DNA of 60,298 nt. It comes from Candidatus Fermentithermobacillaceae bacterium. Lineage in GTDB: Bacteria > Bacillota > Sulfobacillia > Fermentithermobacillales > Fermentithermobacillaceae. The DNA lies in contig DUQH01000102.1 of the NCBI GenBank assembly GCA_012837895.1, positions 1 through 60,298 of the forward strand, given 5' to 3'. A program made the position numbers and the translations under genes. The notes below the pieces were generated by a model. It worked only from the letters and a program-made list of their open reading frames with translations, was not told where the DNA came from and did no database searches. Shown one piece after another: positions 4,078 to 56,227 of the stretch (its first letter is position 1; each line of letters opens with the position of its first letter).

Positions 4078-5344
4078 CTGAGACTTCCTCCTTCATGAAA
4101 TCTAACACGCGTCCGGCTGGAACCTGCTTCTGCCACCCGTGTTCCATAGACCTTATTGTCACAAAGTCTTGTTCAACTTCTTCTTCCCCGACTATTGCTA
4201 CGTACCAGGCATTCAGCCTGTTGGCATGCTTCATCTGTGCCCTCATGCTTCTGCCAAGCGGGTCGAAATCGCTTGAAAAGCCTGAACTCCGCAAGTCATT
4301 AAGCAGCTTGAACCCCGCCCGCGGAATCCGATCATCTTCGCTGTCCGCGAAAACCACAAAGCAATCGATGGATACCTCAGGCCTCAACGGTTTCTCGCCT
4401 TTCTCCGCAGCCAGGATCAGCCTCTCAACGCCTACGGCAAACCCTACTCCAGGGCACGGCTTCCCTCCTAGTTCTTCAATGAGCCCGTCGTAGCGCCCGC
4501 CGCCAATGACCGCGTCCTGGGCGCCAAGGGGAGGCCACTTAAGCTCAAACACTGTTTTCGTATAATAGTCAAATCCCCTTACCAGGGTAGGATCTACGGT
4601 GTACTCAAGTTTAAGGGATTTCAGGATTGCTTGAAGGGTAGCCCAGTGTGCTTTGCAATCATCGCACAGGTAATCGCTAATCAAAGGAACACCTGCAACG
4701 GCTTCCCGGCAGGCCCGGTTCTTGCAATCCAAGATCCTGAGGGGGTTCTTGTCAAGCCTTTCCAGGCAGTCCCGGCACAACCCGGCCGCCCTGCCGGAAA
4801 CCTGCTTCACAAAATCTTCCCGGTGAGCTTTGCGGCATTCAGGGCATCCAATGGTGTTTATGTAGAGAGTGGTGCCCATGAGCCCCAGTTCCTCTGCGAT
4901 CCTTACCGCAAGCAAGATCACTTCCACATCTGAGTACGCAGACGGCGAACCGAGTATCTCCACCCCGTACTGCACAAACTCCCTGTACCGGCCTGCTTGG
5001 GGTTTTTCATAACGGAACATGGGACCCAGGTAAAACAGTTTTCTCGGCAAAGCGCCGCCCTCAAGCCCCCGCTCCAAGAAAGCCCTGGCGACAGGAGCAG
5101 TACCTTCAGGCCTGAGGGTGAGATCCCTGCCCCCCTTGTCCTTGAATGTGTACATTTCTTTTTGAACAATGTCAGTGGATTCTCCCACTGTCCTTGAAAA
5201 TAGTTCAGTGTATTCAAACATGGGAGTCCTTATTTCGTCAAAGTTGTAGATTTTAGAGAGCCGTCTAAGGAGCGCTTCGATGTAAGCCCACTTGTGCGAC
5301 TCGGGAGGCAAGATATCATTGGTGCCCCGAGGTGCTCTCAGCAT
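4064..5344 (-). CDS. hisS: Histidine--tRNA ligase
   Basis: Class IIa synthetase charging tRNA-His. Motif 2 is FRYEKPQAGRYREFVQYGVE, the histidine-specific HisA motif is LVRGFDYYTKTVFE, and motif 3 is GVGFAVGVERL. The insertion domain carries several Cys pairs (CPEC, CRDC, CKNRAC, CDDC), a zinc-ribbon-like pattern common in Bacillota HisRS. Length 426 is typical. A GGGAGGGG ribosome-binding site precedes the ATG. It is the gene before aspS and overlaps it, forming the conserved hisS-aspS pair. Confidence 0.97.
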   Translation of the reverse strand: MLRAPRGTNDILPPESHKWAYIEALLRRLSKIYNFDEIRTPMFEYTELFSRTVGESTDIVQKEMYTFKDKGGRDLTLRPEGTAPVARAFLERGLEGGALPRKLFYLGPMFRYEKPQAGRYREFVQYGVEILGSPSAYSDVEVILLAVRIAEELGLMGTTLYINTIGCPECRKAHREDFVKQVSGRAAGLCRDCLERLDKNPLRILDCKNRACREAVAGVPLISDYLCDDCKAHWATLQAILKSLKLEYTVDPTLVRGFDYYTKTVFELKWPPLGAQDAVIGGGRYDGLIEELGGKPCPGVGFAVGVERLILAAEKGEKPLRPEVSIDCFVVFADSEDDRIPRAGFKLLNDLRSSGFSSDFDPLGRSMRAQMKHANRLNAWYVAIVGEEEVEQDFVTIRSMEHGWQKQVPAGRVLDFMKEEVSGGSN

Positions 5345-5403
5345 GACTACCCCTCCCAGGGATTTGGTTTGTTCATCTAAGATATCACATAAGATATCAC
5401 ACT

Positions 5404-6066
5404 TCAGCGAAAAAAGGGATTTTCTGTGCGTTCTCTCTCCACAGTGGTAGGTTCATCGTGCCCCGGGTATATCACAGTATCGCCAGGTAGAGTGAAAACT
5501 TTATTGCGGATGCTGTCTAGAAGCTGGTGAGTGTCACCTCCCGGGAGATCCGTCCTGCCCACATCCACGCTGAAAATCAGATCCCCTGAAAAGAGCACAC
5601 CTGGCATGCCTTCCCCGCCCTGGGCATCGCTCCTGCCAGGCCAGTACAAACATATAGAGCCCGGGCTGTGTCCGGGAGTCTCGATTACCTGAAGGTCCGT
5701 ATTACCGAAGCTGATTACGTCGCCTTCCTTCACGAAAGTAATCGCTTTTGGCCGGATCATTCTCTCATAACCGGGGAAGGCCCGCATCCAACCAAGATCC
5801 TCCAGGAAACCGCTGTCAGCCTCAGAAATCAGCACGGGGACCGATGTCTTGGCCTGGACAAACCCTGCATCTAAGAAGTGATCAATATGCCCGTGGGTAA
5901 TAACAACATACTGGAGATCAAGTCCCCGGCTATTTATGAAATCCAGGATTCCCTGGCCGTCCCCGCCTGGATCAATTATCACAGCTTTCCCCGATGCTTC
6001 ATCTTCTACAATGTAGCAGTTTGTCTGCAGTAAGCCCACAGCACGCGTGTGTACCTTCACCCGCAA
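5404..6066 (-). CDS. MBL-fold metallo-hydrolase (glyoxalase II-like)
   Basis: Metallo-beta-lactamase-fold hydrolase of about 220 residues with the dinuclear metal site THGHIDH, then GHSPGSI, SGDLIF and a C-terminal GHDEPTT. It is shorter than true glyoxalase II and lacks that enzyme's C-terminal helical domain. The usual annotation would be YcbL/YqgX-like thioesterase-type hydrolase. Substrate is unknown. The start is a TTG (6066) or GTG (6060) with only a weak AAAGG upstream. It sits between dtd and hisS, a placement that recurs in Bacillota. The 59-bp gap to hisS holds a tandem 12-bp repeat, TAAGATATCACA twice. Confidence 0.85.
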   Translation of the reverse strand: MRVKVHTRAVGLLQTNCYIVEDEASGKAVIIDPGGDGQGILDFINSRGLDLQYVVITHGHIDHFLDAGFVQAKTSVPVLISEADSGFLEDLGWMRAFPGYERMIRPKAITFVKEGDVISFGNTDLQVIETPGHSPGSICLYWPGRSDAQGGEGMPGVLFSGDLIFSVDVGRTDLPGGDTHQLLDSIRNKVFTLPGDTVIYPGHDEPTTVERERTENPFFR

Positions 6067-6125
6067 CCCGCCTTTCCCTGTAGAATCCGTATAGAACCGG
6101 TCTCAAACAGCCCGGCGTAGTCAGC

Positions 6126-6575
6126 TCAGAACTCCTTCTCGCTTGAGAGCAATATGGTAACCGGCCCGTCGTTTACAAGTTCCACTTGCATGTATGCGCC
6201 GAAGACCCCTGTCTTGACAGTCAACCCCAGGCGCTGCAATTCCTCTGCCACTTTTGAGTACAGTTCCTCACCCTTTTGGGGAGGAGCAGCCTTATCAAAA
6301 CCCGGGCGTTTGCCTTTCTTTACATCCCCGTACAAGGTAAACTGGGATACCACAAGGACCTCTCCTGATACATCCAAGAGAGACAGGTTCATCTTGCCTT
6401 CTTCATCCGCAAACACCCTTAAGCCGGCGATTTTACCTGCCATGTACTTTACATCTTTTTCAGTATCGTCTTTCCCTACGCCCAAAAACACAAGGGCCCC
6501 CGGGCCGGTAGATGCGACTTCTACATCATCTACTACTACTTTTGCGCTGGTCACCCGTTGGAATACAGCCCGCAC
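6126..6575 (-). CDS. dtd: D-aminoacyl-tRNA deacylase
   Basis: Hydrolyses D-amino acids from mischarged tRNAs. The DTD signature [17 protein letters not shown] is present, and the C-terminal NDGPVT supplies the cross-subunit Gly-Pro pair of the dimeric active site. Length 149 is standard. The start is GTG with GGGGAG seven bases upstream, three bases after the relA stop, so it is almost certainly in the relA transcript. Confidence 0.95.
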
Positions 6576-6578
6576 ATC

Positions 6579-8744
6579 TTATCTCCCCTTACCGAAAACA
6601 CGCCTTACTCCTATGATACCGTCTATTTGCCTTATACTGGCTACCACTTTCTTGAACTCATCCAGATCATGGGTTTCAAATTGAATGGTTATCCGGGCGG
6701 TTCCCTCAGGATTTCCCCTGGCAGTAGCGTTGGTGATGTTGGAACCCATCTCAGCTATGACCGATGTAATTTCAGCAAACAGCCCTGGCCTGTCCACACC
6801 TTCTATCAGTATTTCTGCAGGATAAGATGCCCTTACCTCAGTTTCCCACGACGCTTCTATGAACCGTTCAGTATCGGTGAGGGACATCAGGGTAGGACAA
6901 TCAAGCCTGTGGACTGTGACACCCCGTCCTCTTGTAATATATCCGATTATCGGGTCTCCAGGTAAAGGTGAACAGCACTGGGCAAGGCGCACCAGGAACC
7001 CTGACATTCCTTTGACAGTAACCGCTTCTTCCGGTCCCCGTGGTTTCCTAGGGACTACCTTTGGAGCTTCTTCCCGCTTGGGCAACAAGTCAGGCGCGGT
7101 CTTGGCAGCTTCGTCGCGCAACCTGGTTGTCACGTGGACTGCGCTAATCCCCCCGTAGGAGATAGCTGCATACAAGCTTTGCAGGTCAGGATAGTTCAAC
7201 TTGCGCAATACGTTCCCGGCTATGCCTGCATCAATAAGATCTGCCAGCTTGACGCCTAGCTTTTGCTGCACCTCAGCTTCAAGCGTAGTCTTGCCCCGGG
7301 CAATGTCTTCTTCCCTCAGCAGTTTCCTGAAGAAGGACCGGATCTTAGAGCGCGCCTGGGAAGTCTTTACTATATCCAGCCAGTCCCGGCTTGGCCCTGA
7401 CGATTGGCGCGAAGTGAGAATCTCAACAATATCCCCTGTATTCAGCTTGTAAGACAGGGGTACCAGCTTACCGTTGACCTTTGCCCCCACACACTGGTGG
7501 CCCACGTCTGTGTGAATCCTGTAAGCGAAGTCAAGAGGCGTGGACCCCACAGGCAAATCGATCACATCGCCCTTGGGAGTGAACACGAACACCTCATCAT
7601 TGAATACGTCCAGCCTGAGGGCCTCCATGAACTCGCCGGCATCAGTCATCTCCCTTTGCCAGTCCAGAAGCTGGCGCAGCCATGACATCTTCTGGTCAAA
7701 CGATTGGTCAGACCTTCTTTCCTTGTATTTCCAGTGAGCTGCGCTGCCGTACTCAGCAGTCCGGTCCATCTCCCTGGTCCTTATCTGGATTTCAAAAGGC
7801 TGGCCTAAAGGCCCTAACACAGTTGTATGAAGTGACTGGTATCCGTTGGGTTTGGGCATGGCAATGTAGTCTTTGAACCTTCCGGGCATAGGTTTCCAGA
7901 GGGTATGAGCCAGACCCAACACTTCATAGCAGTCACTCACAGTGGCAGTGATGACCCTCACTGCCAAGAGGTCGTATATCTGGGACATATCTATACCCAG
8001 GCGCTTGGTCTTCCTGTATATGCTGTAGAGGTTCTTAGCCCTCCCCTGCACGTCCGCCTGTATGCCGTGCTCTTGAAGCAGGTTCTGTAGACGGCTGATT
8101 ACCATGGCCACCTCGGCCTCACGCTCGCTGCGCTTGGCCACCATCTGCTTTGCAAGGGACCGGTATTCCTCAGGGTAAAGGTACCTGAACCCCAAGTCTT
8201 CAAGTTCCCACTTAAACCGCCAAATCCCCAGGCGGTGAGCCAGGGGTGCGTATATGTCCAGGGTTTCTTCAGCAGTCTGCTTCTGTTTGTCAACAGGGAG
8301 CGCGTCCAAGGTCCTGAGGTTATGCAAGCGGTCAGCAAGCCTGATTACCACAACCCGCCAGTCTTCTGCCATGGCCAGGAACATCTTGCGCAGGTTCGAC
8401 ACTTGCTCTTCCATCCGTGAGTGGAACTGTATCCTGCTTAGCTTGGTTACGCCGTCAACCAGTCTGGCTATCTCAACGCCGAACTCTTGCCGTATTTCTT
8501 CAATCGTAACGTCAGTATCCTCCGCCACGTCATGGAGCAGTGCAGCAGCCAGGGTATGAGCGTCCCCTTCCAGTTCAGACAGGATCCGGGCTACGGCCAC
8601 AGGATGCTCAATGTAATCCTCTCCCGATAACCTGAATTGCCCTTCGTGAGCCTTGGCAGCAAAAACATAGGCCCTTTGGACCAGTTCCCTGTCCTGTTCG
8701 GTCAAGTAAGCACCTATGTCGTCTTGCAGTCTTTTCACTGCCAT
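6579..8744 (-). CDS. relA: Bifunctional (p)ppGpp synthetase/hydrolase
   Basis: Long RSH enzyme that makes and degrades the stringent-response alarmone. The N-terminal HD hydrolase domain has the metal motif LLHDVAEDT. The synthetase domain has GRFKDYIAMPKPNGYQSLHT, and its RxKD form is the one seen in bifunctional rather than synthetase-only enzymes. TGS, zinc-finger/helical and ACT domains follow, ending at about residue 720. I chose the ATG at 8744 (a GTG at 8738 is nearly as good, with AGGGG eight bases upstream). A longer in-frame start at 8831 would place a terminator-like hairpin inside the coding region. apt lies upstream and dtd downstream. Confidence 0.93.
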   Translation of the reverse strand: MAVKRLQDDIGAYLTEQDRELVQRAYVFAAKAHEGQFRLSGEDYIEHPVAVARILSELEGDAHTLAAALLHDVAEDTDVTIEEIRQEFGVEIARLVDGVTKLSRIQFHSRMEEQVSNLRKMFLAMAEDWRVVVIRLADRLHNLRTLDALPVDKQKQTAEETLDIYAPLAHRLGIWRFKWELEDLGFRYLYPEEYRSLAKQMVAKRSEREAEVAMVISRLQNLLQEHGIQADVQGRAKNLYSIYRKTKRLGIDMSQIYDLLAVRVITATVSDCYEVLGLAHTLWKPMPGRFKDYIAMPKPNGYQSLHTTVLGPLGQPFEIQIRTREMDRTAEYGSAAHWKYKERRSDQSFDQKMSWLRQLLDWQREMTDAGEFMEALRLDVFNDEVFVFTPKGDVIDLPVGSTPLDFAYRIHTDVGHQCVGAKVNGKLVPLSYKLNTGDIVEILTSRQSSGPSRDWLDIVKTSQARSKIRSFFRKLLREEDIARGKTTLEAEVQQKLGVKLADLIDAGIAGNVLRKLNYPDLQSLYAAISYGGISAVHVTTRLRDEAAKTAPDLLPKREEAPKVVPRKPRGPEEAVTVKGMSGFLVRLAQCCSPLPGDPIIGYITRGRGVTVHRLDCPTLMSLTDTERFIEASWETEVRASYPAEILIEGVDRPGLFAEITSVIAEMGSNITNATARGNPEGTARITIQFETHDLDEFKKVVASIRQIDGIIGVRRVFGKGR

Positions 8745-43603: not shown

Positions 43604-45415
43604 TCAGGAGTCGTCTCCGTCAGCCACAGTGGACGTAGCAGCCGCCTCTTCAAGCTCGCAAACCTCTGGCTCGACTTTGCATACCATGGTCCCATGGCGC
43701 GGACGTTTGGTATATGTGGTATGCAAGAGCTGGTGAGATCTCTCGCTAAGAGGCTTGCCAAGGAACGTATCGTACAGTTCCTTGACTGCCGGGTTCTCAT
43801 GGGACTTGCGCAAGGGCATGTTCCTATCTGCTTCATATATGGCAGCTATCCGCTCAAGCCTTATCTCTGTGTCAGTGGGGATAGGCTGGCCGCCACCGCC
43901 AATACATCCACCCGGGCAAGTCATAATCTCGATGAAGTGGTACTCAGATTCTCCTGATGTGATCGAATCCAGCAGCTTCCTGGCATTTGAAAGACCGTGC
44001 GCTACAGCAATCTTCAACGTGGTGCCGTTGAGGTCAACTGAAGCCGCCTTGACTCCGTCAAGCCCCCTGACAACTTCGAAGTCTATCTTGTCGAGGGTCT
44101 TGCCTGTGTAGATCTCACATGCCGTCCTCACTGCCGCTTCCATTACCCCGCCTGTGGCACCGAAGATAACCCCGGCACCTGTCGAGATTCCCAGAGGATC
44201 GTCGTAGTCCTCTTCAGGGAGGTTTGCAAAGTCGATACCGGCCTGCTTGATCATCCTTGCAAGTTCCCTGACTGTAAGCACATAATCCACATCCTGGTAT
44301 CCTGAGTCGTTCATCTCAGGCCTCTGGCATTCGAATTTCTTGGCAGTGCAAGGCATGATGGAAACTACTACCATATTTGCAGGATCTACGCCAATCTTCT
44401 TGGCATAGTAAGTTTTGGCAACAGCCCCGAACATCTGCTGCGGCGACTTGCAGGAAGACACGTTGTCTGCAACTTCAGGGTAGAACGTTTCCATGAACTT
44501 TATCCACCCAGGGCTGCATGAAGTGATTAGGGGCAGCGGGCCTCCTTTGGCCAACCTCTCAAGCAGTTCAGAACCTTCTTCCATGATGGTCAGGTCAGCA
44601 GCAAAGTCAGTGTCGAATACCCTGTCAAATCCAAGCTGTCTCAAGGCACTGACCATCTTGCCGGTGCTGATACTGCCCGCGGGCAAGCCAAAAGGTTCGC
44701 CGATAGCTACCCTGGTAGCAGGTGCGGTCTGGACTATCACGAACTTGTCAGGGTCACCCAAGGCCTCCCATACCTCTTCGGTGTAGTCACGCTCGTAAAG
44801 CGCTCCTACAGGGCATACCAGTACGCACTGGCCGCACATAATGCAGGTGCTGGCGCCCAGACCTTCACCCCAGGCCGGCGCGATGGTGGTATCAAGACCC
44901 CGCCCCACAGGACCTATGGCGTTCACAGTCTGCACTTTTTCGCATACAGCTACGCATCGCCTGCACAATATGCACTTGTTGGAGTCACGGACTACGGCTG
45001 GGGTTGACATATCGACCGGTTCCTCTTCTTTTACCCCGGGGAACCTGACACGCCTTATCCCAAGCCGGTCCGCCAAGTTCTGCAGTTCGCAGTTGAGGTT
45101 CCTTGGGCAAGTGGGACACTCATACGGGTGATCTGACAGTATCATCTCTACAGTAAGTTTGCGTGAAGCACGCACAGCCGGGGTATTGGTGCGGACCACC
45201 ATGCCTGGAGCTACAGGCGTCACACAGGCGGCCTGCAGCGTCTTAGCTCTCTCTACCTCGACTACGCAAACCCTACAGCTTCCTATAACGTTGATGTCTT
45301 TCAAGTAGCACAAAGAAGGGATGTCGATCCCTGCTGCCCTGGCAGCTTCTATAATCATGGTACCTTCTTCAACGGTTACTTGCTTCCCATCTATGGTCAA
45401 GGTTACCAATGCCAT
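43604..45415 (-). CDS. hydA: [FeFe]-hydrogenase catalytic subunit HydA (NADH-dependent, group A type)
   Basis: 603 residues. N-terminal 2Fe-2S ferredoxin domain (about 1-80), His/Cys 4Fe-4S domain (CPTCPRNLNC near 100-109), two 4Fe-4S clusters (CILCRRCVAVC, CIMCGQCVLVC), then the H-cluster domain: L1 TSCSPGW (298-304), L2 MPCTAKK (354-360), L3 MTCPGGCIGGGGQ (498-510). L1 has Ser where classical enzymes have a second Cys (TSCCPxW); a nearby Cys in VSSCKSPQQ may matter. I recall this variant from other NADH-linked enzymes, so activity is expected. Catalyses H2 formation/uptake with HydB and HydC, coupling NAD(H) and ferredoxin. Confidence 0.95.
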   Translation of the reverse strand: MALVTLTIDGKQVTVEEGTMIIEAARAAGIDIPSLCYLKDINVIGSCRVCVVEVERAKTLQAACVTPVAPGMVVRTNTPAVRASRKLTVEMILSDHPYECPTCPRNLNCELQNLADRLGIRRVRFPGVKEEEPVDMSTPAVVRDSNKCILCRRCVAVCEKVQTVNAIGPVGRGLDTTIAPAWGEGLGASTCIMCGQCVLVCPVGALYERDYTEEVWEALGDPDKFVIVQTAPATRVAIGEPFGLPAGSISTGKMVSALRQLGFDRVFDTDFAADLTIMEEGSELLERLAKGGPLPLITSCSPGWIKFMETFYPEVADNVSSCKSPQQMFGAVAKTYYAKKIGVDPANMVVVSIMPCTAKKFECQRPEMNDSGYQDVDYVLTVRELARMIKQAGIDFANLPEEDYDDPLGISTGAGVIFGATGGVMEAAVRTACEIYTGKTLDKIDFEVVRGLDGVKAASVDLNGTTLKIAVAHGLSNARKLLDSITSGESEYHFIEIMTCPGGCIGGGGQPIPTDTEIRLERIAAIYEADRNMPLRKSHENPAVKELYDTFLGKPLSERSHQLLHTTYTKRPRHGTMVCKVEPEVCELEEAAATSTVADGDDS

Positions 45416-45427
45416 CCCTCTCCCCCC

Positions 45428-48400
45428 TTACTCTTTCACGTCACACCGCAGGCATCGTCCGGCTTCGCGCTGGGCCTCGCGGGCTTCATAGCCTAGTTCA
45501 ACTTCAACAAAAGAGGTAACCCTGTCTTCCACAGGCAAGCACCTTACATCCGCTCTCGGCATCTTCTCTTCAATAACAGGAGCAGTGAGCTTCCGTGCGT
45601 GCTTGGACCTGGGCACTACATCAGCGGTTCCTCCAAGATATTGGTTAATCGCGGCAGCAGCTTTCTTGCCGCCTTCGATAGCTTCGACCACAGTTGCCGG
45701 ACCTGTCACACAGTCACCCGCGGCAAACACACCGGGGATGTCCGTTGCCATAGTTCTCGGGTCGACTGCAAAGGTGCCGTCCCTGTTGATATCAAGCCCG
45801 GTGCGGGCAAACCCGTCTGATTCAGGGTTCTGTCCTATGGCTGCAATGAACACGTCACAGTCAAGGTCGAACTCACTGCCTTCTACAGGATAAGTCCTGC
45901 GGCGGCCGGATGAGTCGAATTCACCTGCAACCATCCTGACACACCTGACCTTTTCGACCTTACCATCACCCAGCAGCTCCACTGGGTTAACCATAGCTTC
46001 AATGGCGATGCCTTCTTCAGAAGCTGCCTCAATCTCCTCGGGCTCAGCAGGCATATCTTCACGGCGGCGCCTGTAGACAACTGTTACCTTTTCCGCACCC
46101 AGCCTTCTTGCAGAGCGGGCAGCGTCCATGGCAACGTTTCCGCCGCCTACCACTACCACTTTCTTGCCGGTAAAGTCTATCTTCTTCCCGAGGTTGAGAT
46201 CCCGCAAGAAAACTACCCCAGGAATTACCCCATCAAGAGCTTCGCCTGGAATGCCCATTGCCCTGTCTTTGTGAGCGCCGATTGCTACGAACACAGCGTC
46301 GCAATCGTTAGTAAGCTGCTCCCAGCTCACATCTGTGCCCACTTTGACTCCTGTGCGGATGGCCACTCCAAGGCTCTTTATGACCTCGATATCCTGATTC
46401 AAAGCGTCCTTAGGCAGCCTGTACTGGGGAATACCCACTGCCAGCATACCTCCGGCCACCGGAAGCGCTTCGAACACTGTTACCGAATGTCCCTGCAAGG
46501 CAAGGTAATAAGCTGCGGTCAAGCCTGCAGGACCGGCACCCACTACAGCTACCTTTTTACCTGTAGGCGCTTTGGCAGCCGGCCTGGGCTTGGTGCCACG
46601 GTTGCCCAAGGCCCAATCCGAGGCAAACCGCTTGAGTTCCCTGATGGCAACCGGCTCATCAAGCTGGGCTCTCCTGCACCTTGATTCACATGGGTGATGG
46701 CAGACCCTGCCGCACACTACCGGGAACGGGTTTTCTCTCAGGATTTCTTCATAAGCTTCATCGAAGCGGCCTTGCCTGATAAGGTCAACGTAGATAGGAA
46801 CGTCGACATGAGCGGGACACGTGTTCTGGCACGGTGCATCAAACAATGCCGCACACACTGAAGCGGGACATTTCTTGTCCTTAATATGAATCTCGTACTC
46901 TTCCCTGAAGTACTTGATTGTGGACAGCACAGGGTTGGGAGCGCTTTGTCCTAAGCCGCACAACGCGCTTTCTTTGATAGACTCGCCTAATTCCACCAGG
47001 AGCTCAATATCCCCTTCCCTGCCTTCGCCGCGGGTGATGCGCTGGAGGATTTCCAGCATCCTCTTAGTTCCTATCCTGCACGGGGCACACTTACCGCATG
47101 ACTCAGACTGGACAAACTCCAAGAAGAACTTGGCCAGGTCTACCATACAGGTGTCCTCGTCCATGACCACGAATCCGCCGGAACCCATAATGGTACCCAA
47201 CTCAGCCAGTGACTCATAATCCACAGGCGTGTTGAGGTACTCAACAGGTATGCACCCTCCTGAAGGGCCTCCGGTCTGAACCGCTTTGAACCTCTTGCCG
47301 TCAGGAAGCCCGCCGCCGATGTCGAACACGATTTCGCCAATGGTGGTACCCATGGGTACTTCTGCAAGCCCGTTGTTATTGATGTTGCCGGCAAGGGCAA
47401 ACACCTTGGTGCCCTTTGACTTCTCAGTACCAATAGAGGAAAGCCACTCGGCGCCTTTCCTCAATACGACAGGCACATTCGCGAAGGTTTCGACGTTGTT
47501 GATGACAGTGGGCTTACCCCACAACCCCTCGTTGGCAGGGAAAGGAGGCCTTGGCCTGGGTTCACCCCTTTGACCCATTACTGAATTCAACAGGGCAGTT
47601 TCTTCGCCGCACACAAAAGCGCCCGCACCCAACCTTACGTCAATGTCAAAATCGAACCCGGAGTTGAGGATGTTCTTGCCAAGCAGCCCCAATGCACGCG
47701 CATCTTCTATCGCCTTGTAGAGCCTTTCAACTGCAAGGGGGTACTCGGCGCGGACGTAAACATAGCCTTGGGAAGCGCCCACGGCATAACCGGCTATGGT
47801 CATTCCTTCCAATAGTTTGTGCGGGTCACCTTCGATTGTCGACCTGTCCATGAAAGCTCCCGGGTCCCCTTCGTCAGCATTACACACGACGTACTTGGGG
47901 GAACCCTTAGCTTTGGCTGCAAATTCCCACTTAAGGCCGGTGGGAAACCCTGCGCCGCCACGGCCTCTGAGCCCGGATTTCTTAACAACATCGAGCACTT
48001 CTTCCGGTTTCATCTGCAAGGCTTTGGCAAGGCCGAAATATCCGTTCCGCGCAATGTACTCATTGATTGATTCAGGGTTGATTATTCCACAGTTTTCCAG
48101 CACTACCCTGGTTTGCTTGCTGAAAAACGGTATCTCTTCAAAGTCAACTATTGCTGCCTCAGTTTCAGGTTCCCTGTAAAGCAGCCTCTCAAGGACCCGC
48201 CCTTTAACCAGGTGCTCCTCGACAAGCTCGGGGACATCCTCTTCGTGCACCTGGCAGTAGAAAACACCTTCAGGATACACCATCATGTTTGGGCCAAAAC
48301 GGCAGAAACCAAAACACCCTGTTTCGACCACTTTTACCTCTTTATCAAGGCCGACCCGGGCAATCTCGGCTTCCAAAGCTTCTTTGAGGACAATGCTGCC

Positions 48401-48457
48401 CGATGCATGGCACCCGGTACCTGAACATACTAGGATGTGACTTCTGTAAAACTCCAT
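45428..48457 (-). CDS. hydB: HydB/NuoF-like NADH-binding subunit fused to a GltD-like oxidoreductase
   Basis: 1009 residues. N-terminal thioredoxin-like 2Fe-2S domain (about 1-100), NuoF flavoprotein domain with GLRGRGGAGFPTGLKW (about 163-177) and EDGDP-type FMN/NADH loop, SLBB domain, and the 4Fe-4S motif SESCGKCAPCRIG. From about 540 there is a second module: an Fe-S region CQNTCPAHVDVPIYVDLI, then FAD Rossmann motif VAVVGAGPAGLTAAY (about 636-650) and a second GGGNVAMDAARSARR with VVYRRRREDMPA, the NADPH-type motif. This is the GltD (glutamate synthase small subunit)/NfnB pattern. HydB in most HydABC complexes ends before this module. It suggests an added NADP(H) site. Follows the small ferredoxin gene. 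Confidence 0.93.
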   Translation of the reverse strand: MEFYRSHILVCSGTGCHASGSIVLKEALEAEIARVGLDKEVKVVETGCFGFCRFGPNMMVYPEGVFYCQVHEEDVPELVEEHLVKGRVLERLLYREPETEAAIVDFEEIPFFSKQTRVVLENCGIINPESINEYIARNGYFGLAKALQMKPEEVLDVVKKSGLRGRGGAGFPTGLKWEFAAKAKGSPKYVVCNADEGDPGAFMDRSTIEGDPHKLLEGMTIAGYAVGASQGYVYVRAEYPLAVERLYKAIEDARALGLLGKNILNSGFDFDIDVRLGAGAFVCGEETALLNSVMGQRGEPRPRPPFPANEGLWGKPTVINNVETFANVPVVLRKGAEWLSSIGTEKSKGTKVFALAGNINNNGLAEVPMGTTIGEIVFDIGGGLPDGKRFKAVQTGGPSGGCIPVEYLNTPVDYESLAELGTIMGSGGFVVMDEDTCMVDLAKFFLEFVQSESCGKCAPCRIGTKRMLEILQRITRGEGREGDIELLVELGESIKESALCGLGQSAPNPVLSTIKYFREEYEIHIKDKKCPASVCAALFDAPCQNTCPAHVDVPIYVDLIRQGRFDEAYEEILRENPFPVVCGRVCHHPCESRCRRAQLDEPVAIRELKRFASDWALGNRGTKPRPAAKAPTGKKVAVVGAGPAGLTAAYYLALQGHSVTVFEALPVAGGMLAVGIPQYRLPKDALNQDIEVIKSLGVAIRTGVKVGTDVSWEQLTNDCDAVFVAIGAHKDRAMGIPGEALDGVIPGVVFLRDLNLGKKIDFTGKKVVVVGGGNVAMDAARSARRLGAEKVTVVYRRRREDMPAEPEEIEAASEEGIAIEAMVNPVELLGDGKVEKVRCVRMVAGEFDSSGRRRTYPVEGSEFDLDCDVFIAAIGQNPESDGFARTGLDINRDGTFAVDPRTMATDIPGVFAAGDCVTGPATVVEAIEGGKKAAAAINQYLGGTADVVPRSKHARKLTAPVIEEKMPRADVRCLPVEDRVTSFVEVELGYEAREAQREAGRCLRCDVKE

Positions 48458-48476: not shown

Positions 48477-48848
48477 TCAGGAATTGTCTTCTACGTTCAG
48501 AATCCATTGGTCAATCGGCTTGTGGTTCACGATGTGAGACACCACAATCTGCCTTCCCCGGGAAGGATCGACGTTACCGTAAACTACTTTTGGCTGCCCC
48601 GGAATTTGAACTTCTACGATTGGCTCCTTGGCACAAAGCCCTACGCAACCGGTCTCAGTAATGGCGACGTCGAACTTCCTCCTTACCTTGAGCTCATCAA
48701 TGATGGCAAGCATGGTTTCCCTTGCACCTGCCGCTATGCCACAAGTCCCCATCCCTACAACAATCCGGGGACTGCCCGAAGAAGTACGGAGCTGTATATC
48801 TTGCAGTGTTTCTTCCTTCAGGCGCTCAAGATCTTCCATTGATTTCAT
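48477..48848 (-). CDS. (2Fe-2S) ferredoxin, thioredoxin-like fold
   Basis: 123-residue thioredoxin-like ferredoxin. GMGTCGIAAGARE near the start and ETGCVGLCAKEP supply cysteines of a 2Fe-2S site, similar to the N-terminal domain of HydB and to NuoE. ATG at 48848 with GGGGAGG eight bases upstream, overlapping the ATPase gene by 23 bases. Probably shuttles electrons for the complex; exact partner is inferred. Confidence 0.85.
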   Translation of the reverse strand: MKSMEDLERLKEETLQDIQLRTSSGSPRIVVGMGTCGIAAGARETMLAIIDELKVRRKFDVAITETGCVGLCAKEPIVEVQIPGQPKVVYGNVDPSRGRQIVVSHIVNHKPIDQWILNVEDNS

Positions 48849-49410
48849 GGAACAAACCTCCCCTGTCGGGACGATAGCCTGCCAAGCTTAAACCGCCCCT
48901 CAGTTTCTCCTCGAACTTGAAAATAAAGGCCAACTGGCCTTCCCCTTCTGTACGGATTTGCCTTGTGTCCAAGTGGAAAACGCCTTCCGGTCCTTTGTAC
49001 TCAAGAACCACATCTATCAACGGATTGCCTGCCACGAAAGAAACTAAGGTAGCTGATATGTCACCTAAAGGCTGCCTGTCAGGATGGCTCAGCTTGTAGC
49101 TGACGCTGACCTGAGTTCCGCCTGACTCGTTAGAGTCTATAGATACTGAACCGCCGGCCATGGCAGCTGCCTGTGCTACCAAGGGCAGTCCTAACCCTAC
49201 TTTCTTGCTGTTTGATGAGGTGTAGAAAGGATCTAGGACACGAGCTTGCTCGCTGGAATTCATACCCTTGCCGTCATCTGAAACTGCTATTTGGAGAAGA
49301 TCTGCTTCTTGATCCTCAATCACGCTCACCGTGATATTCCGGGCGCCGGCATGGGCACTGTTCTGCAAAAGATCAAGCAGGTGCAATGATAAGTCTATGA
49401 TCCTGTCCAC
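48826..49410 (-). CDS. Stand-alone histidine-kinase-like (HATPase) ATP-binding protein
   Basis: 194 residues. The GHKL ATPase motifs are visible: N-box LLQNSAHAGARN, G1 VSDDGKGM and G2 KVGLGLPLVAQAA. No dimerisation/phospho-acceptor domain and no membrane segment, so it is not a classical sensor kinase. A C-terminal part from about 125 has no recognised motif. Resides in the hydrogenase operon as the second ATPase besides the sensor protein; an anti-sigma/partner-switching or kinase role is inferred. Confidence 0.8.
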   Translation of the reverse strand: MDRIIDLSLHLLDLLQNSAHAGARNITVSVIEDQEADLLQIAVSDDGKGMNSSEQARVLDPFYTSSNSKKVGLGLPLVAQAAAMAGGSVSIDSNESGGTQVSVSYKLSHPDRQPLGDISATLVSFVAGNPLIDVVLEYKGPEGVFHLDTRQIRTEGEGQLAFIFKFEEKLRGGLSLAGYRPDRGGLFHEINGRS

Positions 49411-49457: not shown

Positions 49458-49985
49458 CTAGTCTCCGGCAACCTGGCTGGATTCAGCCTCTGCCTGTGCC
49501 CTGTAGAAACTGATGATTGACGGTATCTTGTCTTCTGTAACCCGTCCGTGAGTGTCTTTGTTGACCGTCATAACAGGCGCCAACCCGCAGGCACCCAGGC
49601 ACCTGACCACTTCAATGGTAAACAGGCCATCCTCAGTGGTGTCTCCGGCCTTTATCCCCAGTTCCTTCTCGAGCCTTGCCAGCACTTCAGGAGCTCCCCT
49701 TACATAACAGGCAGTACCCTGGCAGATTGAAATCACGTACTTGCCCCTGGGTCTCTCCCTGAAAAGCGAGTAGAAGGTAATAACTCCATAAACCTCAGAA
49801 AGAGAGACGCCCAAGATCTCAGCGACCTTGACCTGAACGTCTTTGGGTACATAACCTAAACGCTCCTGTACATAGTGAAGTACCTGCACTAAAGCCCCGC
49901 TGTCGCCTTTGTGCTTCTGGATATATTGCTCTATATCCAAGTGAATTCCGGCACAATCACACTTGTGCTCTGTGTTTTCCGACAT
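49458..49985 (-). CDS. hydC: HydC/NuoE-like 2Fe-2S subunit
   Basis: 175 residues of the thioredoxin-like NuoE family: N-terminal helical region with VLHYVQERLGYVPKDV, then cluster ligands in CQGTACYVRGAPEVL and CLGACGLAPVM. Forms the NADH-side electron-transfer subunit with HydB. ATG with GAAGGAGGGG upstream. A perfect palindrome 30 nt before the start may be regulatory. Confidence 0.93.
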   Translation of the reverse strand: MSENTEHKCDCAGIHLDIEQYIQKHKGDSGALVQVLHYVQERLGYVPKDVQVKVAEILGVSLSEVYGVITFYSLFRERPRGKYVISICQGTACYVRGAPEVLARLEKELGIKAGDTTEDGLFTIEVVRCLGACGLAPVMTVNKDTHGRVTEDKIPSIISFYRAQAEAESSQVAGD

Positions 49986-50107: not shown

Positions 50108-50449
50108 TCACTGCTTGTCATGAAGACTTTGATACAGCAGTCCGGACATCTCAAAGTTGCTCCGGGGAGTCCAAAGGACGGTCACCCCTTCTCTCCTCGC
50201 CCTTTCGCACGTTTCTTCCGGAACTTCACGTTGGCACACTAAGATGCATGCTAACTCTAAGAGGCTGGCAACAGCTACGATGTTCTCGTGTGTCTGCACA
50301 GTCAGCCAAACATAACCGGGCTTAGCATTGGCCATAACATGGGACAACACGTCACCTGAATAACCGCCCTTCGCAGGCCTCAGCCGCCCCTCTGTTGAAA
50401 TGGCCCTTTCTACCAGGTCAAATTTGGAGATTAAGTCTTGTACCTGCAT
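50108..50449 (-). CDS. DRTGG-domain-like small protein
   Basis: 113 residues. Sequence GYSGDVLSHVMANAKPGYVWLTVQTH and LLELACILVC resembles the DRTGG domain family, here without a neighbouring kinase domain. This type of gene recurs in [FeFe]-hydrogenase operons of Bacillota. Function unknown. ATG start with AGGAAG five bases upstream; 13 bases after the sensor gene. Confidence 0.6.
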   Translation of the reverse strand: MQVQDLISKFDLVERAISTEGRLRPAKGGYSGDVLSHVMANAKPGYVWLTVQTHENIVAVASLLELACILVCQREVPEETCERARREGVTVLWTPRSNFEMSGLLYQSLHDKQ

Positions 50450-50462
50450 TGATTCTTCCTTT

Positions 50463-52238
50463 CTATGCCTCTTGGCTATTGTGTTCTCGCTCTCCCATGG
50501 CGGGAGGACGTATTCCTGCCAGGTCTTTCACTTCTTGCGCAAGGGATTCAAGACGCTGGCGTAACTTGAATATGCAATCTGATAAAGCGCCCCGCCCAAG
50601 AACTACATCTTCTGCAAACGCCCTGCATGTAGGGGCACCGCAGGATCCGCAATCCAGGCCAGGAAGCTCGCCTAACACCTTTTCGAGCTTGGTGAGCTTG
50701 TTCTTAGCTTCCTGGGCATCATCATCAAGTCTGAAGATAGGCCTGGGAAGGATATCCACACTCATCCAGAGTGCAGGATCGTCTGGCGAAATATCTGCGA
50801 TAAGGGGGTTTGGCGGTGCTTCCAGGCTGGCTTGAGCCAGGGTGCTGAGCCTGGCCCTTGCCACAAACGGGTTAGATACTGCAAGGCAGCCGCCTACACA
50901 CCCGCCGGAGCACGCCTGGGCTTCAACGAAATCAATGTCGTTCAAGACACCTTTTTCAAGCTCTTCGAACACTGAGGAAACATGCATAATCCCGTCTACT
51001 GCCAAACCTCTCAGGTTCAATGCCATCAATTCGCCGCCTGACCGGCCCCATCCGATTCCATATCCTGACGACACAGGAAACTCAGCTCCTGTTGTTACCT
51101 CAGATGCATGGCGTTTCACCCAGGCATAGGCCAGGTCCATGGAAATAACCGCATCCACCACCGACCTGCCCCTGCCCACAGGCTGTCTTGCTGCCGTGAT
51201 CTTGGCAGGACACGGGGAGATAAACATTGCGGCAGGTGACTTCTCAGGATGCAGTTTCTTAGCCTTGTCTTTTGCCAGCCACGCAGCAATCTCCATGGGA
51301 GCCTCGCAAGGTATGAGATGTTTCAACAAGGATGGGTACCTCACTTGGATAAGCCTGAGCACTGCCGGGCAGGAACTGGAGATCAGGGGACGTGTTGACT
51401 TGTTTGCCTTGATATACTCCCTCATGGTGACCGTTACAAGATCTGCCGCAATAGAAACATCAAACACCTCATCAAATCCCCCGTCCACGCACAAGGCAGC
51501 TTTCACCACACCTGGGGTGATATTGGAAAACTGGCCATAGAAAGAAGGCGCTACCAGGGCTATCTTGAAGTCAAAGGTGTCCAGGATATCCCAATTGTCT
51601 GCAATTGCCACCTTAGCGTTGTTGGGACACCGCCTGATGCACTCGCCACAATCTATGCACCTGTCCTCCAGGATAAAAGCTTTGCCGTCCCTTACCCTGA
51701 TCGCCTCAGTGGGGCAGCTTTTTATGCAGTTGGTGCATCCCTGGCACCTCTCAGTCTCGAGCCTTACAGAATGGAAATGCGGCAACGCGCTGGTTTCCTG
51801 TTTTCCAGGTAATACCCGGCATACCACATTAGTGCCTTTTCCCAGCTTTGAAATGATCTCCATAGAGTCGGAACAAGCTTTGGCGTTTGGCAGCCCCATT
51901 CCGGCTCCGTACCCCATTTCCTTCACATGGGTCGGAGCTGTTGAGTAGCCTTCGGTCATAGCCATTTCGATATCCGCAATTCCAGGACCAGTGTCGGTTA
52001 CCACTATTTCCAGAGCACCGTCTTTCCAAAAGGTACTTACAGTGCCTTGGGAGGCATGGATCACGATATTCATAGCTAGCTCGTAAGCTACAATCAATGC
52101 ACGTCGCGAGGCCTCAGGCGGGAAGCCTATGCTAAGCAAAGCACGCTTGAGTTTGGACGTCTCAGTTCCTACTGTGCTAAACTCACCATTGCTCACTGAG
52201 TACTCATATATAAGCCTTTCAGGAGCAGCTACGGCCAT
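50463..52238 (-). CDS. Sensor-type [FeFe]-hydrogenase-like protein with N-terminal GHKL ATPase
   Basis: 591 residues in four parts: an RsbW-like ATPase domain (about 10-145; AYELAMNIVIH, TDTGPGI, GAGMGLPNAK); a 2x[4Fe-4S] ferredoxin (Cys 165-175 and 194-204); an H-cluster-like domain with Cys in SSSCPA (C290), SPCPAK (C343) and ACSGGCVGG (C443, C447); and a C-terminal cluster domain CGSCGAPTC (530-538). The four Cys needed for the H-cluster 4Fe site remain, while the proton-transfer Cys is Ser, a trait of sensory hydrogenases (HydS). Likely H2 or redox sensing controlling a regulator through the ATPase. ATG at 52238 has GGAGG eight bases upstream. Confidence 0.85.
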   Translation of the reverse strand: MAVAAPERLIYEYSVSNGEFSTVGTETSKLKRALLSIGFPPEASRRALIVAYELAMNIVIHASQGTVSTFWKDGALEIVVTDTGPGIADIEMAMTEGYSTAPTHVKEMGYGAGMGLPNAKACSDSMEIISKLGKGTNVVCRVLPGKQETSALPHFHSVRLETERCQGCTNCIKSCPTEAIRVRDGKAFILEDRCIDCGECIRRCPNNAKVAIADNWDILDTFDFKIALVAPSFYGQFSNITPGVVKAALCVDGGFDEVFDVSIAADLVTVTMREYIKANKSTRPLISSSCPAVLRLIQVRYPSLLKHLIPCEAPMEIAAWLAKDKAKKLHPEKSPAAMFISPCPAKITAARQPVGRGRSVVDAVISMDLAYAWVKRHASEVTTGAEFPVSSGYGIGWGRSGGELMALNLRGLAVDGIMHVSSVFEELEKGVLNDIDFVEAQACSGGCVGGCLAVSNPFVARARLSTLAQASLEAPPNPLIADISPDDPALWMSVDILPRPIFRLDDDAQEAKNKLTKLEKVLGELPGLDCGSCGAPTCRAFAEDVVLGRGALSDCIFKLRQRLESLAQEVKDLAGIRPPAMGEREHNSQEA

Positions 52239-52725
52239 GCCCATTGCCTCCAAACCGTTCCAATCCACCTAAGACAACAGAAGCTACAACAGCTCCTGCA
52301 AGAGCGGTTATTAGTTGGGTCACAGTCAATGATGTGTAGGCAGGCGCAGGAACCTGGGTTCCCTGTGCTATCAGATACTTTATTCCAAGGGTCATCACTG
52401 CGAATTTCCCAAGAGCAGCGAGCCCCATTGCGAGATACCTGTTGAACCTGTGGAGAAATCCCGAAACAAGCGCCAGGGTTGCGTTACCGGCCATTATAAC
52501 CGGTACTGCAGGGGCGAACCCCATTATCCCTGTGATAAGCGCAATCCACGGGGTCAAGAGTCCTACCAAAACACCACTGACAGGGCCAATATATATCGAC
52601 GCCACATACAAGATCGCGTTTATACCTGGGCCTGTGATGGGTTGGCGCAAATTGAGGGCTTGGAAGGCAATAGCTACGCCGGCGATAACTGCAGTTCTAA
52701 CAATAGTCCGTAAATCCATGTTCAA
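52219..52725 (-). CDS. ECF-transporter S-component-like membrane protein
   Basis: About 168 residues with five or so membrane helices and Ala/Gly-rich sequence of ECF S-components (TITRTAVIAG-like N-terminus, TGPGINAILYVASIYIG, IMAGNATLALVSGFLH). TTG at 52725 has GGGAG eight bases upstream; an ATG at 52719 is the alternative. It overlaps the sensor gene by 20 bases and is first in the hydrogenase operon. No energising subunits nearby; substrate unknown, possibly a cofactor or metal-related vitamin for hydrogenase. Confidence 0.65.
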   Translation of the reverse strand: MNMDLRTIVRTAVIAGVAIAFQALNLRQPITGPGINAILYVASIYIGPVSGVLVGLLTPWIALITGIMGFAPAVPVIMAGNATLALVSGFLHRFNRYLAMGLAALGKFAVMTLGIKYLIAQGTQVPAPAYTSLTVTQLITALAGAVVASVVLGGLERFGGNGHGRSCS

Positions 52726-52921
52726 TATGGTGACTCCCTCTCCCCCACGCTCATACTGCAGCATGGCAATGAAGTTTTGGTCCTTAGGACTAACTTCTTA
52801 TGTTTTACGGTACAAAAAATTGCAGGAAGAGGTGTTAGCTGCGATGTGGAGTGTGTAACACTATTCTTACTTGTTACTACAACGTTGCTGCGATGGTTAT
52901 GTGAATGCCAACTTCCCGTTT

Positions 52922-53511: not shown

Positions 53512-54183
53512 TTACCCCCTGTACAGCCCCTCAGCCCTGGTGATATCCATTACAAAAATAATCCCTGCACCTGGCTTATCTATATCCAACTTATTCTTTA
53601 CTGAGTTCACGATAGCATCAGTCTTATCTGTTCTCGAGATGATTAGGATAATGTCTTTCTCAGGTTCAATCTGGAGATTGAACAGCCTTTGTTTTTCCTG
53701 ACTGGCCGCACCCCTGCCATGTATGATGGTGCCTCCTGTAGCACCTGCAGATTTTGCAGCTTCCAGTACCTCATCTCTTGAGCCTTTGGGTACAACAACG
53801 AAAATGGCTTCACAATCCAAATCGTTCACACCTTCCTTTTTCTCTTTGGGAGAAATAGCTTGTGAACCATCAATCTTCGAGGCCAAATACTTTACCGGCA
53901 TGGAAAACGCGATACCGCGGTGGGGTTTATTCAGGCCCAATTTCCTGATTACTTCATCATATAACGCATCTTCCATAGATTCATCTATGGCCGCCAGGAA
54001 AATTTCCTTGCGTGTATCCAGGATGCCCAGCAGATTCAACATATCACTGGATACGGTACCCCGTCCTAAGAAAACAGTGCCGCCCTCGCCTCCTAAGTTC
54101 CTGTATATCTCGAACATCTTGCTTCCCTTGCCGAAGTCCAGAATGGACCAAAACAGGAGCTTTCCATCTCTTGGAGAGTCCAT
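53512..54183 (-). CDS. Tandem P-II-like protein
   Basis: 223 residues with two P-II-like ferredoxin-fold repeats, about 5-105 and 115-220. Each starts with a beta strand and a Gly-rich loop (GGEGGTVFLGRGT; GATGGTIIHGRGA), followed by LDIDKPGAGIIFVMDI-like C-terminal strands. P-II proteins bind ATP/ADP and sense energy or nitrogen state, acting on a partner transporter. Start at 54183, three bases after DUF1538, with GGAGG in the end of that gene. This pair, P-II with DUF1538, is seen in other bacteria, so DUF1538 is the likely partner. Confidence 0.85.
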   Translation of the reverse strand: MDSPRDGKLLFWSILDFGKGSKMFEIYRNLGGEGGTVFLGRGTVSSDMLNLLGILDTRKEIFLAAIDESMEDALYDEVIRKLGLNKPHRGIAFSMPVKYLASKIDGSQAISPKEKKEGVNDLDCEAIFVVVPKGSRDEVLEAAKSAGATGGTIIHGRGAASQEKQRLFNLQIEPEKDIILIISRTDKTDAIVNSVKNKLDIDKPGAGIIFVMDITRAEGLYRG

Positions 54184-54185
54184 GG

Positions 54186-55679
54186 CTAATTGCCCTCCTC
54201 TCTGAGTTGAGTGCTTGAGGCCCTTCTTTCCGCTGATTGAACCAGGGCCCCTAGAACCTGTATAGTCACCAGTGGCATCATAGCTACCATAGCGATGACT
54301 CCAAATCCGTCAACCATCACACTTGCCGTGGGAATGGCGCTTGCAGCCCCCTGTGCAAAGGCCAAGACAAACGTTGCTGTCATAGGCCCTGAAGCTACGC
54401 CTCCTGAATCAAAAGCTATACCCACAAAAATAGGAGGCACTCTGTAAGATAAGATTACCCCTAAAGCAAAACCAGGCAACAGCAAATGCCACAACTTGAG
54501 TTGCGGTATCATGATCCTAAGCATTGACAAACAAACCGCAAGGGCAATACCTGCTGACAACGCTACCAAGATCACTTTTCTCCTAATCCTGCCTGCGGTA
54601 ACCTCTTCTATCTGTTCGGTCAACACATGCACTGCGGGCTCAGCCAAAACAACCACCATACCCAAGATGAAACCAATTACAGGTAGGAACCATCTATGAT
54701 TAGCCGCTATATACTCGCCCATGTACCTCCCGACTTCCATGAACCCGGCATTCACCCCGGTTAAGAACAAGACAAGCCCTATATATGTGTACAACAGACC
54801 TTTCAGGATTGAACCCCTGGTCCTCTTGTTCAACTTGAACGATTTCCAATCAAAAATCAGAAACAGAATAGTGAGGGGCGCCAAAGTGAAAACGGAATCT
54901 CTTATCATCTGCGGGAACAAGCGCACATAAGGCGCAAGTATCCCTACGTTTGGCACGAAAGGATCCGCCGCCTCTTGAATATTTCTGAGGCCCATTACAA
55001 TACTCATTATCATGATGGCGAAAATCGGCCCAGCGGAAGCTTGGCCTACCATGCCGAAACTGTCTTCTTCGAAGGTGTCTCCGCCCTTCAATTGAGACAC
55101 GCCATAACCCAAGGCCAGGATAAAAGGTGTTGTCATTGCCCCTGTAGTAGCTCCTGACGCATCTACCGAAATTGCCAGGAACTCCTCTGAAGTCTTGAGT
55201 CCAAGCAAGAAGATAAATGAATAAGCTATTGTGAACACAACGTTTAACGGCTTTGAATACAGTATCCTCAACAATCCTACCGCAACCATTATTCCCACAC
55301 CGGCCGAAACTACTATCAAGACAAGGGAACTGGGTATGACGCCTCCAGAGGCCAGCCCCACTTGATCCGCTAGGATCTGCAGGTCAGGCTCGGCAACGGT
55401 AATGAGAAACCCCAGCGAAGCGCCGAGGATACCTACCAACCACGGATTATTTGATTTGGCGAGAGCATGTCCCATGAGGTTCCCAATAGGCTGGACACCT
55501 AAGCCTGCACCAAACAGGAATATCCCAAGTCCTATTGTCACGACCACGGCGCCTATTATGAACCGGATGAGGAGAGTGCTTTCTATGGGTACCACCGTCA
55601 GACTTAGTATGATAACGATAATCGCTATGGGAAACACCGATAACGATACCTCTTTCAATCGTTCCAGCAGTATGTTCAA
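54186..55679 (-). CDS. DUF1538 membrane protein
   Basis: About 497 residues with 12 or so membrane helices arranged as two repeats; both halves contain similar motifs (FLITVAEPDLQIL; VVVLAEPAVHVLTEQI, and twice DSGGVASGPMTATF-like / DASGATTGAMTTPF). The repeat symmetry suggests a transporter. Function is not established. TTG at 55679 has AAGGAG seven bases upstream; a GTG at 55703 adds eight residues. Paired with the tandem P-II protein, which suggests ligand-gated transport regulated by nucleotide state. Confidence 0.8.
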   Translation of the reverse strand: MNILLERLKEVSLSVFPIAIIVIILSLTVVPIESTLLIRFIIGAVVVTIGLGIFLFGAGLGVQPIGNLMGHALAKSNNPWLVGILGASLGFLITVAEPDLQILADQVGLASGGVIPSSLVLIVVSAGVGIMVAVGLLRILYSKPLNVVFTIAYSFIFLLGLKTSEEFLAISVDASGATTGAMTTPFILALGYGVSQLKGGDTFEEDSFGMVGQASAGPIFAIMIMSIVMGLRNIQEAADPFVPNVGILAPYVRLFPQMIRDSVFTLAPLTILFLIFDWKSFKLNKRTRGSILKGLLYTYIGLVLFLTGVNAGFMEVGRYMGEYIAANHRWFLPVIGFILGMVVVLAEPAVHVLTEQIEEVTAGRIRRKVILVALSAGIALAVCLSMLRIMIPQLKLWHLLLPGFALGVILSYRVPPIFVGIAFDSGGVASGPMTATFVLAFAQGAASAIPTASVMVDGFGVIAMVAMMPLVTIQVLGALVQSAERRASSTQLREEGN

Positions 55680-55854
55680 GTAATCTCTCCTTTCCGCATC
55701 CACATATTACGCACACCGGCGTCACGAACCTCACATACTCCAGTTGTTTGGTATGTAAGCGCACACACTATCACCATTTCATCATACTATTGAAACCTGG
55801 ACAAGGCAATCTATCAGCCTTGAACCTGGGGTAACGCTGGCAATACATAAGCAA

Positions 55855-55901: not shown

Positions 55902-56227
55902 CTATTGGGCCATGAACATCTCTATGTCGTCATCAACTGTACCGGTGCCTGAGATACCGAAGTTCTCCACAAGCACCTTGGCAACATTGGGTGACAGGAA
56001 TGCGCGTTGGTAATGGTGATGAACAAGCTGTTGAGTGCCTGATAATTAAGATCCTCGAGCTTGCTGACATCGATCTTCCCTTTGACGACGATATCCGAAA
56101 TTCCCTTAAGTGTGTAAATCAGGAGGTCTTGAAGTTTTGCCACTTCCTCGTTCTTGCCACAAACACCTCTTACAGTACAACCTGTGTTTCTAGTGGTCTC
56201 TTGGCACTGATAACAGAACATACCCAT
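55902..56227 (-). pseudogene. hcp: Hybrid-cluster protein (hcp) remnant with large internal deletion
   Basis: N-terminal part reads [20 protein letters not shown] and [18 protein letters not shown], the conserved Hcp start including the CxxC of the cubane cluster. It runs to about residue 75 (ITITNA). At about position 56007 the sequence jumps, one frame away, into the Hcp C-terminus: [34 protein letters not shown] and stop (TAG, 55902-55904). About 430 residues, including the hybrid-cluster ligands, are missing. The join is at ACGCGCATTCC. The gene is non-functional. Promoter-side region 56228-56470 still has a good GGAGG ribosome-binding site. Confidence 0.85.

Follow-up and report, generated by a model that had tools for sequence, protein, structure and literature searches.

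The stretch of DNA analysed here, hereafter the window, comprises positions 1 to 60,298 of contig DUQH01000102.1 from a bacterium of Candidatus Fermentithermobacillaceae, a family of thermophilic anaerobes (assembly GCA_012837895.1), and carries on its minus strand a gene (50463..52238, coordinates with stop) whose product of 591 aa, HydS-K, joins in one chain an ATPase, a ferredoxin, an H-cluster domain and a C-terminal FeS domain. A GGAGG sequence 8 nt upstream of the ATG at 52238 favors this start, the alternative being a GTG at 52268 that gives a protein of 601 aa. In the 601-aa numbering, a Pfam scan matched HATPase_c at residues 57-152 (2.6e-9), 4Fe-4S (Fer4_10) at 168-218 (1.8e-9), Fe_hyd_lg_C at 236-460 (6e-34) and the FeS family PF04060 at 535-567 (2e-13), in agreement with the domain order given in the preliminary description of this DNA, and detected no PAS domain. 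On the 591-aa protein, the N-terminal SpoIIAB/RsbW-like, kinase-type HATPase domain covers aa 1-150 (51789..52238) and is followed by the two [4Fe-4S] ferredoxin motifs in aa 158-212 (51603..51767; cysteines 165, 168, 171, 175 and 194, 197, 200, 204), the H-cluster domain in aa 226-460 (50859..51563) and, in aa 525-557 (50568..50666), the further Fe-S domain that had been proposed, a CX2CX4CX16C motif formed by C530, C533, C538 and C555, all encoded on the minus strand. With 84 relatives as input, AlphaFold2 produced a model with a mean pLDDT of 92.3 and a pTM of 0.84, and a structure search with residues ~150-500 of this model retrieved the [FeFe]-hydrogenases CbA5H (Z 38) and CpI (Z 36); the fold of the ATPase rests on sequence profiles.

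HydS-K belongs to a HydABC operon, whose genes all lie on the minus strand. Directly downstream is found a DRTGG-domain protein of 113 aa (50108..50449), a candidate partner or substrate, and then HydC, a NuoE-like 2Fe-2S protein (49458..49985; PF01257, 2.5e-53), a second and separate HATPase, HATP2 (48826..49410; HATPase_c, 1.4e-16), a 2Fe-2S ferredoxin-like protein (48477..48848; PF01257, 3.8e-4), a NuoF-like HydB of 1009 aa fused, according to its domain matches, to a GltD-like NAD(P)H oxidoreductase (45428..48457), and HydA (43604..45415), a catalytic group A [FeFe]-hydrogenase that matches NF040763 (group A6) with 929.8 bits, above the cut-off. The place of HATP2 between HydC and the 2Fe-2S protein is conserved, and HydB is merely ~596 aa long in two relatives (loci L025 and L026). 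Motif L1 of HydA reads TSCSPGW, with a serine where CpI has its C300 ligand, which is not unique since the solved HydA1 (7q4v) carries the same motif. A PHP gene, usually located between those encoding the DRTGG protein and HydC, is missing in the window, and L113 (361-1635) and L116 (5740-7050) encode a fusion of a PHP phosphoesterase domain with the operon's second HATPase. On the other side, a gene encoding an ECF-transporter-S-component-like membrane protein (52219..52764, minus strand; PF12822, 3.6e-7) overlaps the start of HydS-K by 20 nt, a position kept in most relatives, and in L043, where the ATPase is unfused, a gene of this kind likewise comes right before that of the ATPase. The hyd operon of the window is immediately preceded by genes for a P-II-like regulator and a large multi-pass membrane protein (53512-55703, minus strand), which are kept together in near relatives, and a short ORF at 55922-56227 (minus strand), whose product by eye resembles no more than the beginning of a hybrid-cluster (hydroxylamine reductase-like) protein, is possibly a truncated gene.

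Group C and group D [FeFe]-hydrogenases have long been named "putative sensory". The hydrogenase part of HydS-K was aligned with 87 group D sequences, the HydA of the window and the group C paralogue of the same genome. The four H-cluster cysteines claimed at the outset are indeed present (C290, C343, C443 and C447) and the ligand cysteines are kept in 87/87 group D sequences; the absence of the proton-transfer cysteine is likewise borne out, the position of C299 being occupied by Ser289 in HydS-K and by Ala, Ser or Asn in 65, 21 and 1 of the 87, respectively. The position of M353 holds Ser341 in HydS-K (Ser in 50 and Thr in 37 group D sequences), and both changes are those reported for group D/M2e enzymes, in which C299 is replaced and M353 becomes Ser or Thr (PMC8163306). 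Lys346 of HydS-K corresponds to K358, a lysine in 87/87, and the same full conservation applies to the eight ferredoxin cysteines, HydS-K included, and to the cysteines of the C-terminal CX2CX4CX16C motif. A set of charged residues drawn from 70 group D enzymes (PMC13104023) has been listed for TamHydS of Thermoanaerobacter mathranii, itself a putative sensory [FeFe]-hydrogenase of group D (M2e) (PMC8163306, PMC13104023), and was mapped onto HydS-K by offset and motif. All 9 of the residues tested (R30, R32, K35, R42, K58, D378, E392, D393 and D403 in TamHydS) are found in HydS-K; D378, E392 and D393 occur in 87/87 group D sequences and D403 in 77/87, and most of the group D charged residues are missing from both the HydA of the window and the group C paralogue. 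Judged by these sequence features, the ferredoxin, H-domain and C-terminal FeS domain of HydS-K together make up a putative sensory [FeFe]-hydrogenase of group D (M2e).

The H-cluster pocket of HydS-K is altered at three positions (C299S, M353S and M497Q), its three other [4Fe-4S] sites are conserved, and elsewhere the ATPase serves different sensors, CBS pairs among them, all of which would suit a redox sensor whose H-domain is structural, or holds only [4Fe-4S] clusters, and which reports to the ATPase the redox state of the ferredoxin instead of H2. Nevertheless, such a use would not need the four ligands and Lys358, kept throughout group D, and TamHydS, despite the same pocket changes, takes up an H-cluster and catalyses reversible H2 turnover, with low activity (PMC8163306). 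The maturase HydG is moreover encoded in the genome (604 bits), making an H-cluster in HydS-K plausible, and we consider sensing by redox state without an H-cluster unlikely.

Regarding the N-terminal domain, a profile of 36 ATPase homologues compared with solved structures identified SpoIIAB (1e-18) and RsbW (2e-7) ahead of histidine kinases. E53, N57, D82, G84, G86, G113, G115 and T136 are invariant in the 36 sequences, the SpoIIAB of the same genome included, and the GHKL N-box Glu/Asn, the G1 box DXGXG and the G2 box GXG are all present in HydS-K. In the ATP-lid motif EGYSTAPTHVKEMGYGAGMGLPN (aa 96-118; 51885..51953, minus strand), the residues E96, G97, S99, T100, A101 and G109-L116 are 90-100% conserved across the homologues. 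For binding ATP, the domain is equipped as partner-switching Ser kinases are, and phosphotransfer would be expected of it.

Homologues with the same domain order, the search for which had been suggested beforehand, were found in 16/16 relatives sampled within its family and order, all with a single-chain ATPase-HydS and an intact frame (17/17 genomes when that of the window is counted), and because of this conservation chance is excluded as the origin of the fusion, as is a frameshift or assembly artefact. In a sample of 398 Bacillota genomes an uninterrupted ATPase-HydS frame was detected only in the family of the window; outside of it the matches span stops or come in pieces, and the idea that the fusion is a general trait of group D was rejected. 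The sensor class and the neighboring ATPase were each known beforehand, and what is new here is the natural fusion of a group D HydS to an ATPase that elsewhere is a separate neighbor. Neither the fused form nor the near-universal linkage, nor the DRTGG and CBS connections described below, was found in the literature, in a search that covered few subscription journals.

In unfused loci the ATPase gene lies immediately upstream of the group D HydS gene in 73/75 cases, on the same strand and with a median gap of 12 nt, the ATPase is encoded in 155/157 genomes of the sample where a group D HydS occurs versus 14/241 where it does not (398 genomes; Fisher p 8e-91, a value not to be read literally because species are not independent), and the distances of ATPase and HydS correlate (r = 0.76), three measures that are all inflated by shared ancestry. 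Even among 40 loci chosen for the absence of a reported joint ATPase-HydS match, the ATPase is still upstream in 38. Four kinds of fusion were observed, namely the ATPase-HydS of the window's family, DRTGG-ATPase (9 loci), HydS-DRTGG (2 loci) and CBS-CBS-ATPase. The latter, with two CBS domains recognized by eye N-terminal of the ATPase in L133, L135-L140 and L142, is found mostly in loci without a group D HydS, where the sensor has apparently been swapped. In a Bacteroidales contig (L041) the genes are arranged as DRTGG-ATPase-DRTGG-PHP-HATP2-2Fe2S-HydB plus HydA, and no group D HydS is seen; since the ATPase is present without HydS in this locus and in the 14 genomes mentioned above, H2 is not its sole input. 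Genes close to that of the ATPase in L132 (3022-5787), again a locus without HydS, encode a Rex-like redox repressor and a multihaem cytochrome-like protein. In L134, L143 and L150 the group D HydS is divided between two reading frames, probably frameshifts or pseudogenes. Taken together, because of the linkage and of the fusions to DRTGG and CBS domains, the ATPase appears to be a shared output module whose input is usually HydS and whose constant companion is the DRTGG protein.

The ATPase might instead be a non-kinase module for nucleotide-dependent binding or assembly, holding back a partner as an anti-regulator, for instance, or helping to assemble or insert the clusters of HydABC. GHKL ATPases do include non-kinases, the operon encodes a second HATPase, a classical STAS substrate is missing from the genome, and two group D HydS loci without the ATPase (L089 and L094) are also without the second HATPase, a joint absence hinting that the two ATPases of the operon work together. 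However, the closest solved relatives, SpoIIAB and RsbW, are Ser kinases, the N-box Glu/Asn of SpoIIAB is invariant, and fusion to sensors such as a CBS pair or an H-domain suits signalling more than assembly, which leaves this explanation improbable.

In 69/75 loci HydS is followed by the DRTGG gene, and in 63/75 another DRTGG gene is found ahead of the ATPase. PF07085 is matched by 25/26 members of the neighbor family, the copy of the window alone falling under the curated cut-off (14.4 vs 25.2 bits), and this copy is the sole match of its family in the genome. The AlphaFold2 model of the protein (pLDDT 96.2) has 2ioj as best structure match (Z 15.4, 110 aligned residues, 2.3 A). The possibility that it is a STAS domain in disguise was rejected, given the similarity of the model to DRTGG, HPr-kinase N-domain and Mur-ligase folds; no STAS is listed among its structure matches, an absence that is weak evidence compared with the strong positive match to DRTGG. 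D33, L35, S36, W48, T50 and N56 are invariant within the family, and Ser36, being near a helix start in the model and part of an invariant Asp33/Ser36 pair, may be regarded as a candidate phosphosite and no more. On account of the co-occurrence, of the flanking DRTGG genes and of the fusions, ATPase, HydS and DRTGG protein look like one signalling module inside the HydABC operon. Our literature search, with the coverage given above, returned nothing relevant on a link of DRTGG or anti-sigma proteins with hydrogenase operons.

The preliminary description had reported no STAS-type partner nearby, which holds and can be extended to the whole genome: SpoIIAA, inside the spoIIA operon, is the single STAS protein of this genome, which is 96% complete, and therefore a classical, dedicated partner of the RsbV type is absent and the idea of a dedicated STAS partner, nearby or elsewhere, was rejected. 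For this reason the DRTGG protein is the leading candidate for the partner of HydS-K. SpoIIAA, SpoIIAB and SigF are present, and the ATPase is of the SpoIIAB family, so that the kinase could conceivably act on SpoIIAA and link H2 to the sporulation sigma factor SigF; yet no genomic link to spoIIA is seen, and the ATPase accompanies DRTGG in hydrogenase operons even outside spore formers, as in the Bacteroidales contig, making such a connection very doubtful. A DNA-binding or sigma-factor target of HydS-K was not identified.

Elsewhere in the genome (contig 95, locus L042, 4028-7890) an XRE regulator, a group C HydS with ferredoxin, H-domain, FeS and PAS domains (4965-6755) and, immediately after it, a SpoIIE-type phosphatase (6715-7890) are encoded consecutively, and the pair of group C HydS and phosphatase was found in 13/13 relatives checked. 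HydDB type C3 is phosphatase-linked (PMC5037454), and the PAS domain and adjacent SpoIIE phosphatase that characterize it are both found for this group C HydS and neither for HydS-K. That one genome holds both a sensor kinase and, built along similar lines, a sensor phosphatase invites the view that the two form an opposed pair, without proving it.

One of the closest known systems is TamHydS. Both it and HydS-K have two [4Fe-4S] clusters, an H-domain and a CX2CX4CX16C motif, lack the proton-transfer cysteine and carry Ser for M353; the charged residues R30/R32/K35/R42/K58 and D378/E392/D393/D403 are common to them, and both genes are located upstream of HydABC in association with a histidine-kinase-like ATPase. 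This ATPase gene adjoins that of TamHydS (PMC8163306) and appears to be the same gene as the one studied here, but it is separate, whereas in HydS-K the ATPase is fused N-terminally; in addition, the AraC regulator of the TamHydS locus is not seen in the ORFs adjoining HydS-K, and the position of S384 is Ala in HydS-K. Relative to SpoIIAB and RsbW, its best relatives of solved structure, the ATPase shares the GHKL fold family, the N-box E/N and the G1 and G2 boxes, but differs in its fusion to Fe-S and H-domains, in a long GFGAGMGLPN lid and in being partnered by DRTGG; next to it, neither a dedicated STAS substrate nor a sigma factor is encoded. Systems of group C3 (HydDB, PMC5037454; HfsB/HfsC, PMC11837493) likewise couple an H-cluster sensor to an enzyme of Ser/Thr phosphorylation; there, however, the sensor has a PAS domain and the phosphatase, of SpoIIE type, is a protein of its own, in contrast to the fused kinase-type ATPase of HydS-K, which has no PAS. 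TmHydS, of group C, from Thermotoga maritima (PMC10055695), is similar in its low-activity, sensory-type H-domain and C-terminal FeS domain, but has a C-terminal PAS domain and no fused ATPase.

Based on these observations, we hypothesize, with a probability of about 0.6, that HydS-K is a one-chain sensor kinase for H2 or redox state, its kinase activity, H-cluster loading and target being what we infer. This sensor-kinase reading had already been put forward and gains good support from the context of adjacency, genomic co-occurrence and fusions that differ between lineages; the group D class, the ATPase neighbor of TamHydS and the DRTGG partner had been overlooked. The H-cluster would be loaded by HydEFG, of which HydG is present, and H2 would bind this slow, proton-transfer-impaired cluster, as reported for TamHydS, altering its redox state, that of the adjacent ferredoxin clusters and the local fold. 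The secondary structure of TamHydS changes under H2 (PMC13104023), while the redox state of its C-terminal cluster is unchanged with H2 (PMC13104023), which makes the proposed signal route less certain. The ferredoxin domain, which begins about 10-15 residues after the ATPase, may relay the change to the latter, which in response would start or stop either ATP-dependent phosphorylation or the binding of a partner. The most likely receiver is the adjacent DRTGG protein, through which the activity or expression of HydABC might be affected, this being the weakest step, and the phosphatase-linked group C HydS could reverse the phosphorylation mark. A role as a plain metabolic hydrogenase, its N-terminal domain being mere decoration, is scarcely credible for HydS-K, for although TamHydS catalyses reversible H2 turnover (PMC8163306), HydS-K is without the proton-transfer cysteine, the same operon encodes a HydABC that is truly catalytic and of group A, and the ATPase linkage is conserved.

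In a broader and more tentative proposal, which we would sooner doubt than assert, ATPase, group D HydS and DRTGG protein would constitute a phosphorylation switch that responds to H2, is new to the literature and is widespread among anaerobic Bacillota, with DRTGG replacing STAS and with HydS-K as its one-chain sensor kinase, opposed in the family of the window by the phosphatase-linked group C HydS, so that H2 would set both kinase and phosphatase. Since a PAS domain is absent, the authors of the TamHydS work raised the question of what the signal output of group D might be (PMC8163306). The fusion of HydS to a kinase-like ATPase, along with the near-absolute linkage and the DRTGG and CBS fusions, names the output module of group D, and HydS-K offers a single polypeptide for H2-gated ATPase or kinase activity. 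If true, fermentative anaerobes would possess a kinase-type, [FeFe]-based form of H2 signalling, which would matter for how much H2 biogas and biohydrogen communities yield.
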